DNA of 34,266 nt, taken from positions 1 to 34,266 of the forward strand of contig CAIPUN010000020.1 in NCBI GenBank assembly GCA_903868245.1. The letters run 5' to 3'. The position numbers and the translations under genes are program-made. Source of the DNA: an uncultured Sphingomonadales bacterium. GTDB lineage: Bacteria; Pseudomonadota; Alphaproteobacteria; Sphingomonadales; Sphingomonadaceae. Below the pieces are notes generated by a model. The model was not told the origin of the DNA. It ran no database searches and saw only the letters and a list, made by a program, of their open reading frames with translations. The stretch's first letter is position 1, and the number at the start of each line of letters is the position of its first letter. Below, one piece after another: positions 30,683 to 34,148 of the stretch.

Positions 30683-31669
30683 ATGACATCCTTCTCTTTC
30701 CTTGATCTGGTGCCTGTTGTCGAAGGTGGGTCTGTCGCAACCGCGCTCGCCAATGCGGCTGATCTTGCGGCGCATGCCGAAAGTCTTGGTTTCACGCGCT
30801 ATTGGGTCGCGGAACATCATGGCATGCGCGGCATTGCCAGCGCCGCCACCAGCGTCGTCATCGGACATATTGCCGCCGCAACGCAGACCATCCGCGTTGG
30901 CTCTGGCGGCATCATGTTGCCCAACCATGCGCCTTTAGTGATCGCGGAACAGTTTGGCACATTGGACGCGCTCTATCCGGGGCGGATTGATCTGGGGCTT
31001 GGCCGTGCCCCCGGGAGCGATCAGCGCGTTGCTGCCGCGATCCGGCGAACGCTCGACAGCGATCCCAACGCATTCCCGCGCGATGTGATGGAATTGCAGA
31101 GCTATTTCGCCGATGATGGCAAAACCGGAATTGTCGCAACACCCGGAGCAGGCGCCCAACTGCAACTCTACATCTTGGGCAGTAGCCTCTATGGCGCGCA
31201 GGTGGCCGCTGCTTTGGGTCTGCCCTTCGCCTTTGCCAGCCATTTTGCGCCACAAATGTTAGATGAGGCGCTGCACATCTACCGCAGCCATTTCCGCCCA
31301 AGCGCCGTGCTTGATGCGCCGCACGCGATGGCCGCGTTCAACATCATCGCTGCCGATACCGATGCGGAAGCGGAGTTTTTGGCAAGTTCATTGATGCAAA
31401 GCTTTGTCGCGCTGCGCACAGGCAACCCCCGCCAATTGCCACCACCCGTCGAAGGCTATGTCGCCTCTCTGCCCCCGCATTTTGCATCTGCGCTCAATGA
31501 TGTCTTGTCCGCCAGCGCCATTGGTGCAGCGGACACGGTCACATCGGCGGTGCAGGCGTTTCAGGCGCGGACGCAGGCCGACGAAATCATCGTTGCTTGT
31601 TCTGTTTTCGACCATGAAAAGCGCAAGCGGAGCTTGGAAATAACGGCCGAGGTTTTTGCGCGGCTTTAA
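30683..31669 (+). CDS. LLM-class flavin-dependent oxidoreductase (luciferase-like, MsnO8/YhbW type)
   Basis: A 328-residue TIM-barrel flavoprotein of the bacterial luciferase family: [68 protein letters not shown]. These signatures place it with the YhbW-like group that uses reduced flavin and oxygen; no substrate is known. It starts 80 bases from the divergent LysE-type gene and is followed by the palindromic-repeat region. Confidence 0.92.
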
Positions 31670-31715
31670 TAGGATGCGTTAACAAAGATTTGCTGCTCAA
31701 GTGAGAGCCTTCACA

Positions 31716-31751
31716 ACGTGATAGGCACCAGCCTGCGCTGGGGCGACATGG
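31716..31751 (+). repeat. Palindromic repeat copy R1 (forward)
   Basis: Core TAGGCACCAGC-CTGC-GCTGGGGCGAC: an imperfect stem-loop shared with four copies at 32.07-32.32 kb. It ends 11 bases before the GIY-YIG start and forms an inverted pair with R2 on the other side of that gene. The GIY-YIG leader therefore lies inside or beside the repeat. Confidence 0.9.
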
Positions 31752-31762
31752 GAGTTTGTCGG

Positions 31763-32056
31763 ATGGCGAAGGGCGGATATGTCTACATCATGGCCAGCGG
31801 TCCGCACGGCACCCTCTATATCGGCGTAACCGCCAATCTCCCACGCCGGATTTGGGAACATAAGAATGATGTCGGCTCCGAATTCTGCAAAGAAAATGGC
31901 TGTAAGATACTGGTCTATTACGAAGTTTTTGGCGACATTGAAGACGCCATCAAGCGCGAAAAAGCGATGAAGGTTTGGAAGCGTCGGTGGAAGACTGAAT
32001 TGATCAGCCGCATTAACCCCGATTGGCGAGATTTGTATCAGGACCTGAACAAATAG
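31763..32056 (+). CDS. Single-domain GIY-YIG nuclease
   Basis: A 97-residue GIY-YIG endonuclease-superfamily protein (the UvrC-N-like small class). GGYVYIM (residues 4-10) and TLYIGVT (17-23) are the two GIY-YIG strands. Arg28, His33, Glu66 (IKREKAMK) and Asn85 (INPDW) occupy the usual catalytic positions, so it should be active. It has no DNA-binding domain. ATG 31763 has GGAG (31751-31754) 8 bases upstream; in-frame ATGs at 31748 and 31718 lie in the palindromic repeat and are less likely. The gene sits between inverted copies of that repeat, which suggests the nuclease and the repeat are linked; no function is established for this small class. Confidence 0.92.
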   Translation: MAKGGYVYIMASGPHGTLYIGVTANLPRRIWEHKNDVGSEFCKENGCKILVYYEVFGDIEDAIKREKAMKVWKRRWKTELISRINPDWRDLYQDLNK

Positions 32057-32069
32057 CCATCTACCCAAA

Positions 32070-32101
32070 CATCGCCTCAGCGTAGGCTGGGCCTATCACG
32101 T
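32070..32101 (-). repeat. Palindromic repeat copy R2 (reverse)
   Basis: Reverse-orientation copy with stem GCCTCAGC-GTAG-GCTGGGCC, one G shorter than R4 in the right arm. It begins 13 bases after the GIY-YIG stop and forms the left half of the first composite unit with R3, over a 38-39 base spacer. Confidence 0.9.
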
Positions 32102-32139
32102 CTATCGGCTTACTCAACCACCCGATGCACTATACGGAA

Positions 32140-32175
32140 ACACGTGATAGGCACCAGCCTGCGCTGGTGCGACGT
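32140..32175 (+). repeat. Palindromic repeat copy R3 (forward)
   Basis: Forward copy with a perfect 8-bp stem GCACCAGC-CTGC-GCTGGTGC (32151-32170). Its first 22 bases after the ACGTGATAG flank are identical to R1. Compared with R4 one pair of the stem has changed from C-G to A-T on both sides, a compensatory change. Confidence 0.92.
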
Positions 32176-32210
32176 AGCGTTTATCTAAAGGGTAATAAAT
32201 TTAAACCCAC

Positions 32211-32242
32211 CGTCGCCCCAGCGTAGGCTGGGGCCTATGACG
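32211..32242 (-). repeat. Palindromic repeat copy R4 (reverse)
   Basis: Reverse copy with a perfect 8-bp stem GCCCCAGC-GTAG-GCTGGGGC (32215-32234). It opens the second composite unit (R4-spacer-R5). Confidence 0.92.
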
Positions 32243-32281
32243 CCTGTCGGTTTAAACAGCCACGCGACGCGCTACCCTGAT

Positions 32282-32317
32282 ACACGGTATAGGCCCCCGC
32301 CTTCGCTGGGGCGACCT
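32282..32317 (+). repeat. Palindromic repeat copy R5 (forward)
   Basis: Forward copy, GGCCCCCGC-CTTC-GCTGGGGC, with one mismatch in the stem. It ends 28 bases beyond the sdhA stop codon (on the opposite strand), so the sdhA transcript runs straight into the repeat cluster. The R4-R5 spacer resembles the R2-R3 spacer. Confidence 0.9.
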
Positions 32318-32345
32318 ATCTTCAATAGTTACGGCTATCTTAGAC

Positions 32346-34148
32346 TCAATACACCCGCGGCTTCGGCTTAATATACTCGACATCATCGGTCAGCGTGTAA
32401 TCATGCACCGGGCGGTAGTCGATTTTGACCTTACCGCCGGAGCCGCCCCAACCGTCAAACCAGGAAGCGGTGTGCTTCATCCAGTTGGCATCATCGCGCT
32501 CGGGGAAATCTTCGTGGGCATGGGCACCGCGGCTTTCCTTACGGTTGTTTGCGCTTTCGATCGTGCAGACTGCTTGTGCCATAAGGTTATCTAGCTCAAG
32601 CGTTTCAATGAGGTCCGTATTCCAGATCAAGCTACGGTCGGTCACATGGACGTCGGCGAGGCGCTTGTTGACCTTCTGCATTTCGACGACGCCTTCTTCC
32701 AACAAGGCGGTGTCGCGGAAGACGGCAGCATGCTTTTGCATTGTCCGCTGCATTTGCAAACGGATGTCGGCAGTCGGCGATCCGCCCTTTGCATTGCGGA
32801 ACTTGTCGACGCGGGCCAGTGCAAGGTCAGCAGCGTCCGCTGGCAATGCCTTATGCGGCGCGCCTGGGGTCAGCGTCGATTTCAAATGCAAGCCTGTGGC
32901 ACGGCCGAATACGACAAGGTCGATCAAGGAGTTGGAACCCAAACGGTTTGCGCCATGTACCGAAACGCAGGCCGCTTCGCCAACGGCATAGAGGCCCTGA
33001 ACGATCACTTCGGGATCATTGCCGACCTTATTCACGACCTGGCCATGATAATTGCAGGGAATACCGCCCATATTATAGTGGACCGTTGGCGTCACAGGCA
33101 AAGGTTGGCGGGTTAGGTCGACGCCAGCAAAAATCTTACCGCTTTCGGTGATGCCGGGCAAACGCTGCGCCAATACCGCAGGGTCGATATGGTCGAGGTG
33201 CAGGTAGATATGGTCCTTATGTTCGCCAACGCCGCGCCCTTCGCGCATTTCAAGCGCCATCGAACGGCTGACAACGTCGCGTGACGCCAAATCCTTCGCC
33301 GATGGGGCATAACGCTCCATAAAGCGTTCACCTTCACTATTGGTCAGATAACCACCCTCGCCGCGTGCGCCTTCGGTGATGAGAACGCCAGCGCCGTAGA
33401 TACCTGTTGGGTGGAACTGGACAAATTCCATATCTTGCAATGGCAGGCCAGCGCGCAAGACCATGCCGCCGCCATCGCCGGTGCAGGTATGCGCTGACGT
33501 TGCCGAGAAATAGGCGCGGCCATAGCCGCCGGTTGCCAGCACAACAGCGTGGCTCTTAAACCGGTGGATGCTGCCATCTTCCATGCACATGGCGATAACG
33601 CCACGGCATTCACCATTTTCCATGATCAGGTCGAGCGCGAAATATTCAATGAAGAAGTCCGCGTCATATTTCAGGCTCTGTTGATACAAAGCATGCAACA
33701 TGGCATGACCGGTGCGGTCGGCGGCGGCAGCGGTCCGCTGAACGGGGGGGCCTTCGCCCATATTCTGCATATGGCCGCCAAAGGGCCGTTGATAGATGGT
33801 GCCATCGGCGTTGCGCGAGAATGGCACGCCCGCATGCTCAAGCTCATAAACCGCGGCAGGCGCCTCACGGACCATATATTCGATAGCATCTTGGTCGCCG
33901 AGCCAATCGGAGCCCTTAACCGTGTCATACATGTGCCAGGTCCAATGGTCTGGCGAGTTATTACCCAGCGATGCCGCAATCCCGCCCTGCGCCGCCACAG
34001 TATGCGAACGCGTTGGGAAGACTTTGGTAATGCATGCTGTTTTCAATCCAGCTTCCGCGCTGCCCATAGTGGCGCGCAGACCCGACCCGCCAGCGCCGAC
34101 GACGACGGTGTCATATGTGTGGTCGATAATCTTATAAGCGTCTGACAT
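32346..34148 (-). CDS. sdhA: Succinate dehydrogenase flavoprotein subunit
   Basis: Catalytic subunit of complex II, oxidising succinate to fumarate at the inner face of the cytoplasmic membrane. The 600-residue protein has the FAD motif [14 protein letters not shown], the covalent-FAD histidine in [11 protein letters not shown] (His49), the substrate loop [21 protein letters not shown] and [12 protein letters not shown]. The C-terminus ends [13 protein letters not shown], as in alphaproteobacteria. ATG 34148 shares its A with the sdhD stop (TGATG). The sdhB gene normally found next is not downstream; the palindromic repeats and an opposite-strand GIY-YIG gene are there instead. Confidence 0.97.

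Follow-up and report, generated by a model that had tools for sequence, protein, structure and literature searches.

A single-domain GIY-YIG nuclease gene flanked by CGTC-tagged REPs: a candidate enzyme for a widespread family of bacterial repeats

Organization of the repeat-nuclease locus

The window analyzed in this study, a 34,266-nt stretch of DNA from an uncultured Sphingomonadales bacterium, is contig C20 of a draft genome (labelled G000; 1.97 Mb in 202 contigs). Near its right end, between a gene that ends at 31669 (a flavin-dependent oxidoreductase, assigned by eye) and a minus-strand gene that ends at 32346 (succinate dehydrogenase flavoprotein, also assigned by eye), lie a small nuclease gene and five copies (R1 to R5) of a palindromic repeat:

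31670..32345, no strand: entire insertion between the left and right genes, absent from four species of the same genus
31716..31747, minus strand: R1, a CGTC-type REP and lone dimer half; its tag, TGTC, faces the gene; one stem mismatch
31763..32056, plus strand: single-domain GIY-YIG nuclease gene, 97 aa; an alternative in-frame ATG at 31748 abuts R1
about 32070..32096, plus strand: R2, a degenerate REP that is missing one base and forms the left half of the dimer R2-R3
32070..32175, no strand: REP dimer R2-R3, with one long hairpin predicted (z -7.6)
32142..32173, minus strand: R3, a REP with a perfect 8-bp stem and the tag CGTC, right half of the dimer R2-R3
32211..32315, no strand: REP dimer R4-R5, with a long hairpin predicted (z -5.9)
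32211..32238, plus strand: R4, a REP whose 8-bp stem is perfect and which forms the left half of R4-R5
32288..32315, minus strand: R5, a REP whose tag is degenerate and whose stem has one mismatch; it forms the right half of R4-R5

All five repeats are present in the order and orientation given in the first-pass annotation of this DNA, and its report of perfect 8-bp stems in R3 and R4, related by a compensatory pair, is borne out by both sequence and folding. The stem arms are GCACCAGC/GCTGGTGC in R3 and GCCCCAGC/GCTGGGGC in R4, with one compensatory pair as the difference, and as single-stranded DNA the two repeats fold at -9.9 kcal/mol (z -3.9) and -10.6 kcal/mol (z -4.5), respectively, values that 0 of 200 shuffles equalled in either case. 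Folding is weaker for R1 (z -1.0, 24 of 200 shuffles equally good) and R5 (z -1.9, 10 of 200). The spacing of the inverted ends was only partly as described: the gap of about 13 bases between the gene and R2 stands (13-14 nt), while the gap to R1, given as 11 bases, is 15 nt when counted from the ATG at 31763.

With up to three mismatches allowed, the draft genome contains 30 matches to the repeat core and 0 to its reversed control, which excludes chance. Ten opposed repeat pairs lie outside the window, eight of them with a start spacing of exactly 58 nt; R2-R3 and R4-R5 are therefore ordinary dimers, with R1 left as a single half. In an alignment of 14 stretches around copies, some of which are incomplete dimers, conservation extends from CGTC to GACG, and an internal spacer lengthens the palindrome. 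The genome contains three GIY-YIG genes, of which the one described here is alone in being flanked by repeats; the second small gene, at a contig end, belongs to a different subfamily (C59), and the third encodes its domain within a 656-aa frame.

Identity of the repeats and of the nuclease

On its tagged strand R4 reads CGTC-GCCCCAGC-GTAG-GCTGGGGC-CTA, that is, a tag, an 8-bp stem, a 4-nt loop, and a 3-nt tail, an architecture that was named CGTC-1 by Di Nocera, De Gregorio, and Rocco in 2013 (PMC3733652). As described in excerpts of that paper, CGTC-tagged REPs share with the window copies the tag, the 8-bp stem, a loop of 4 or 5 nt, the 3-nt tail, the arrangement in opposed dimers, and an alphaproteobacterial host; they include dRS3 and RPE-4/RPE-6, and 9 bp is the other stem length given for them. 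In the window the tag is CGTC in R3 and R4, TGTC in R1, and degenerate in R5, the stem, loop, and tail lengths are those of CGTC-1, and the 30 copies with 10 opposed pairs outside the window match its high copy number and dimeric arrangement. The window copies differ from the described REPs at the base of the stem, where the usual AT pairs are missing and the stem begins with GC. Among 165 distinct REPs with a 4-nt loop (four-loop REPs) that flank nuclease genes, the stem starts with an AT pair in 106 and with a GC pair in 33, so that the window repeat is a subtype of CGTC-1 at best. Stem positions 1, 2, 3, and 6 vary in these 165 REPs, mostly in a compensated manner, and compensatory changes occur at several stem positions when a further 71 distinct flanking REPs are included. 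The same excerpts of PMC3733652 name no enzyme for CGTC REPs; transposase genes were examined there, and the intragenic set of that study left out REPs inside hypothetical proteins of less than 120 aa.

The window protein contains a GIY-YIG domain (PF01541, E 2.6e-12). Across 33 homologues, Y8, G21, R29, H33, E66, and N85 are invariant and Y19 nearly so; the protein thus carries the GIY and YIG motifs and the Tyr, Arg, Glu, and Asn residues of the superfamily, the last four of which we take to be catalytic. The only solved structures matched by sequence at E <= 0.01, 1zg2 and 1ywl, both come from UPF0213 single-domain proteins.

Association of nuclease genes with REPs

Homologues of the nuclease (E <= 1e-10) were found in 80 of the 119 genomes of the family-rank group, with 1-8 copies each among the matches listed. 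A hairpin was scored where a CGTC or TGTC tag preceded an 8-bp stem with a 4-5-nt loop and at most one mismatch, and 110 loci were examined, comprising the first 30 returned and 80 picked down the match list after those 30 had been seen (L135 and L136 begin at the gene and have one flank only, and some other loci lie near contig ends). The enrichment beside GIY-YIG genes that the first-pass annotation anticipated holds for this subfamily, with a CGTC hairpin within 200 bp of the gene at 94 of 110 loci (upstream at 82, downstream at 80, on both sides at 68, and on neither at 16). Hairpins number 8.2/kb within 100 bp of the genes versus 0.07-0.21/kb beyond 200 bp (roughly 40-120x), and six control tag sets gave 0-0.14/kb within 100 bp. 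Using a 120-bp window, 93 of 110 loci have a hairpin compared to a mean of 2.7 for random pseudo-genes placed in the same loci; for perfect stems the corresponding values are 79 of 110 and 1.4. When 9-bp stems were allowed, a rule applied afterwards that leaves the headline counts at 8 bp, one of the 16 hairpin-free loci was added (95 of 110) and the control subfamily described below remained at 0 of 30.

The tag of the nearest REP mostly points outward, at 70 of 82 loci upstream and 64 of 80 downstream, a polarity shared by free dimers. Where both nearest REPs have outward tags (51 of 110 loci), the gene therefore occupies the position of the dimer's spacer. The window locus is in the minority, with the tags of R1 and R2 both facing the gene, an arrangement ('-gene+') that was scored at 5 of 110 loci; the window itself was scored as '-gene-' because the script overlooked the degenerate R2.

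Thirteen of the 16 hairpin-free members share one clade of the protein tree with two REP-flanked members. Some of these 13 loci (L062, L063, L076, L106, L049, L059, L060, L066, L094, L100, L101, L114, and L120) are syntenic between genomes, and the clade looks domesticated and vertically inherited. The first-pass annotation had suggested a REP-like system with a different enzyme, to be doubted if the repeats were spread evenly or if homologues in relatives lacked them. The repeats are concentrated at the genes, homologues lacking them do exist but form a minority that falls largely in one clade, and the suggestion is supported.

Genes of other kinds in the same genomes do not have this association. 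Unlike the window nuclease, the GYTYKRRPVEL-type (C59) GIY-YIG subfamily, possibly of the YhbQ/UPF0213 type, has a CGTC hairpin within 200 bp at 0 of 30 loci (the best 30 of about 60 places, with L144 represented by one flank only). Transposases of the Y1/RAYT type occur in 21 of 119 genomes, with a hairpin nearby at 1 of 25 loci, where its sequence is not that of a REP, and G000 contains no match to PF01797 (Y1 transposase). These counts rule out RAYT as the enzyme in these genomes, and Di Nocera et al., in excerpts of PMC3733652, likewise describe tyrosine transposases as not flanked by REPs. The hallmarks of a REPtron were not found: no Y1 (HUH) transposase is flanked by the repeats, and GTAG-tagged hairpins have a density of 0.14/kb within 100 bp of the nuclease genes.

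The association was also recovered starting from the repeats. Opposed four-loop REPs 325-355 nt apart, the one spacing range searched and one fitted to the known unit, form 21 pairs in the 119 genomes, and 21 of 21 enclose a nuclease gene (16 identified by tblastn and five by overlap with known homologue places). Of five further pairs picked by eye, that in G033 encloses a broken copy, that in G081 an intact gene already in the set, and those in G116, G118, and G103 none.

REP subtype and REP number

Flanking REPs were assigned to eight subtypes according to loop length and inner stem and compared with the protein tree, which is built on few columns and leaves many forks unresolved. On the tree of the 94 REP-flanked proteins, subtype changes 22 times, compared with an average of 58.6 after shuffling; three of the eight subtypes (each of them small) cluster no better than in shuffles. 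In 71 of 94 cases (17.5% expected by chance) the nearest protein from another genome has the same subtype, versus 30 of 106 ordered pairs of same-genome paralogues, 12 of which come from four near-copies in G071, indicating that the type of REP goes with the enzyme more than with the host.

The number of REPs per genome, counting both loop classes, has a median of 37 in the 80 genomes with a listed gene versus 3 in the 39 without (Mann-Whitney p 1.5e-9), a comparison that ignores phylogeny apart from five same-genus contrasts. In each of those five genera, with one carrier and one non-carrier apiece, the carrier is richer (57 v 7, 77 v 4, 130 v 9, 10 v 4, and 6 v 3). By these patterns 8 of 80 genomes with the gene hold fewer than 5 REPs, and among the 39 genomes lacking a detected gene 28 hold fewer than 10 and 11 at least 10. 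When all 39 were searched with a profile, three of these 11 REP-rich genomes (G009, G049, and G054) proved to carry broken or fragmentary genes next to REPs, and the other eight yielded none; in G049, which holds 121 REPs, the gene is reduced to its 3' end, sitting between two REPs.

For loop length, the correspondence between gene-flanking and genome-wide REPs is looser. More four-loop than five-loop REPs are held by 23 of 32 genomes in which every examined nuclease gene is of the four-loop type, and more five-loop REPs by 16 of 23 five-loop-type genomes (share difference p 1.7e-4), while 16 of the 55 single-type genomes lack a majority of REPs in their gene's loop type. G000 is itself an exception to this fit, with 15 four-loop and 50 five-loop REPs under the strict pattern. 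A five-loop-type nuclease was not found in G000, and a lost, missing, or foreign enzyme may lie behind its 50 five-loop REPs.

Occupied and empty sites, copies, and selection

The insertion site of the window was read in 11 species of its genus. In G123, G125, G127, and G133 there is almost no space between the two flanking genes, and both REPs and nuclease are missing; G120, G121, and G134 likewise lack both at this site. REPs are present without the gene in G122, and a broken-frame gene lies between REPs in G126. G132 and G128 contain other inserts, that of G128 with one CGTC hairpin. The G132 insert (L280, G132:C1 ~139134-139828) spans about 600 nt, encodes a toxin-antitoxin pair of the ParD/ParE type (PF03693, PF05016), and is bounded by a ~95-bp repeat of the left gene's end. 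Two other REP dimers of G000 (L340, 776-861 and 5905-5991) are missing from sister species (eight and five genomes read, respectively). These two independent insertions have nearly equal net lengths of 144 and 146 nt, compared to a dimer of about 86 nt, leaving an extra flank of about 58-60 nt, and the position of the dimer within the insert differs between the two.

Whole units have also been duplicated. The four copies in G071 are 94-96% identical at the DNA level and lie in different contexts, and the two in G111 are 94% identical. As judged by eye, the duplicated units extend about 25 nt past the left REP (with lower similarity in one of the four copies) and 17-60 nt past the right REP; units and insertions alike overrun the REP tags, and exact element ends were not found in either. 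An empty-site comparison at one G071 copy drew on one relative only, with the flanks on separate contigs. The G071 copies (L138-L141) adjoin, by eye, another short repeat, GTCGGGAAAGCGGACAT / ACGTCCGCAATGTCGG, and similar letters occur near the copy on pNL2 (L344); this repeat could mark a favored landing place or belong to a larger unit. Some REP-flanked loci are syntenic between genomes, so that frequent movement is not universal. At L322 (G118:C6:81400-82100) an array of ~253-nt units, with one REP dimer apiece, indicates that tandem amplification of REP dimers is possible as well.

The nuclease gene is under purifying selection, with dN/dS of 0.04-0.20 in 12 nuclease pairs and 0.2-0.6, based on few changes, in four pairs of the near-identical G071 copies; three further pairs yielded no value.

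Distribution in other phyla and on plasmids

An alignment of 33 REP-flanked members was used as the query for a wider set, comprising the best 80 of 575 relatives. Within this set a CGTC hairpin lies within 200 bp at 63 of 80 loci and on both sides at 48 (at three hairpin-free loci one flank is shorter than 200 nt), and hairpin density falls from 7.2/kb within 100 bp to about 0.06/kb beyond 400 bp. The set spans alpha-, beta-, gamma-, and deltaproteobacteria as well as Kordia (Bacteroidota), and includes bins labelled Thermotogota, Chloroflexi, Nitrospira, Omnitrophota, and Patescibacteria; several members are metagenome bins, whose phylum labels may be wrong. Allowing 9-bp stems raises the count to 67 of 80 by adding Oryzibacter, a Rhodospirillales bin, a gammaproteobacterial bin, and Maritalea, and leaves 13 loci with neither an 8- nor a 9-bp-stem CGTC hairpin, including those of Fulvivirga, Colwellia, and Roseibium. 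Homologues were found in 32 plasmid records and matched in no phage record. Of four plasmids inspected, three have CGTC hairpins on both sides of the gene by script, and the fourth (S. meliloti, L346) has longer-stem CGTC hairpins that were seen by eye and missed by the 8-bp rule.

A proposed mode of spread and its alternatives

The most probable explanation of these patterns is that the gene and the repeats form one system, selfish or domesticated, in which the GIY-YIG nuclease is the probable cognate enzyme of CGTC REPs and the system would spread by cutting and repair copying. The complete element would be REP-gene-REP, and the REP-spacer-REP pairs would be its gene-less derivatives. The nuclease would bind the tagged hairpin, either extruded from the duplex or exposed on single-stranded DNA, and would nick or cut at or beside it. 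The resulting break could then be repaired by copying another REP locus, a process that would spread and homogenize REPs and occasionally take the gene along. GIY-YIG enzymes cut DNA without a covalent intermediate, and to our knowledge they do not join strands. For this reason, and because a protein of this size could not accommodate a known joining domain and because duplicated units and REP-dimer insertions alike bring extra flank with them (about 58-60 nt in the two insertions), repair copying is preferred over transposition of the transposase type. A wider claim, held more tentatively and in our judgment somewhat short of an even chance, is that CGTC REPs are one widespread mobile family across several phyla, divided into clade-specific hairpin subtypes and moved by a single-domain GIY-YIG nuclease that has neither a transposase nor an integrase or polymerase. 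Such a nuclease would cut tagged hairpins and leave the copying of the element, together with some flanking DNA, to host repair. If each nuclease clade recognizes its own subtype, several independent nuclease-REP pairs could coexist in one genome.

There are several potential alternatives to a cognate enzyme. It is conceivable, though unlikely, that a free-standing homing endonuclease uses ready-made CGTC REPs as target or shelter while the REPs spread by other means. The window site itself would fit such an order of events, with REPs but no gene in G122 and the gene between REPs in G126 and the window genome, as would the 11 of 39 gene-less genomes with at least 10 REPs and the 50 five-loop REPs of G000, for which no matching nuclease was found there; subtype matching would also be expected if each clade targets one REP type. 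However, REP number is low in the absence of the gene (below 10 in 28 of 39 genomes), and homing is made less likely by the broken genes beside REPs in 3 of the 11 REP-rich genomes that lack a working gene and by the lack of any other enzyme candidate, the Y1 transposases being confined to 21 of 119 genomes and not flanked by REPs. Less probable again is a role in host housekeeping, in which a structure-specific repair enzyme trims or resolves the hairpins that REPs form during replication and stays close to them for regulatory reasons, the REPs serving for example as terminators or mRNA stabilizers of its gene. SLX1, a single-domain GIY-YIG relative, acts on branched DNA, and the REPs directly at both gene ends, the mostly REP-free and partly syntenic clade, and purifying selection would all suit such an enzyme. 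Against this role, the family looks mobile, being patchy, with 1-8 copies per genome among the matches listed, decayed copies, near-identical copies in unrelated surroundings, and empty sites; housekeeping also leaves unexplained why REP subtype follows enzyme clade.

Finally, REPs could simply collect in intergenic space, with a small mobile gene landing in the same permissive spots. Both are indeed intergenic, but such coincidence is very improbable given the local enrichment of about 40-120x, the orientation bias, the other subfamily at 0 of 30 loci, and the REP-first search, in which 21 of 21 pairs at the expected spacing enclosed the gene. As a sufficient explanation, a passenger or hot-spot effect is rejected by the local control, the tag control, the orientation bias, and the C59-type subfamily.

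Comparison with known systems

The proposed nuclease-REP system resembles REP/RAYT systems (REPtrons and REPINs) in its tagged palindromes, opposed pairs, many copies, repeat-flanked enzyme gene, and linkage between enzyme and repeat subtype, as judged from excerpts of a TnpA-REP study (PMC8266576) and of RepRanger (PMC12306157). It differs in the tag, which is GTAG in REP/RAYT and CGTC or TGTC here, and in the enzyme, which is an HUH tyrosine transposase (TnpA-REP) there and a GIY-YIG nuclease of about 97 aa here, so that the joining chemistry of TnpA-REP is unavailable. The logic of a tagged palindrome with a cognate enzyme would be the same, with another tag, another enzyme, and probably a different chemistry. 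GIY-YIG homing endonucleases such as I-TevI and I-BmoI have the same catalytic domain and spread selfishly by cutting and repair, the mode favored for the present system. Unlike them, the window nuclease is associated with no intron or intein that we could see, leaves no room within 97 aa for a separate DNA-binding domain, and has its gene flanked by repeats.

The literature searched, whose scope ended short of preprints and most subscription journals, contained nothing linking GIY-YIG genes to CGTC REPs. One paper, a population study of Moraxella, contains both terms 'GIY-YIG' and 'repetitive extragenic', and excerpts of a Caulobacter study (PMC10688885) describe transcribed, phage-regulated GIY-YIG genes. 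The present results make the nuclease a leading candidate for the enzyme behind CGTC REPs, which the passages of PMC3733652 consulted left without one in 2013. If the candidate is correct, bacterial REPs would have a second, chemically different route of spread, and the patchy, multicopy occurrence of small GIY-YIG genes, some annotated as hypothetical or 'excinuclease ABC subunit C', would be explained. Homologues occur on large plasmids in Rhizobium, Sinorhizobium, Shinella, and Sphingobium, and the latter label, which some of them carry, probably hides the nuclease family.
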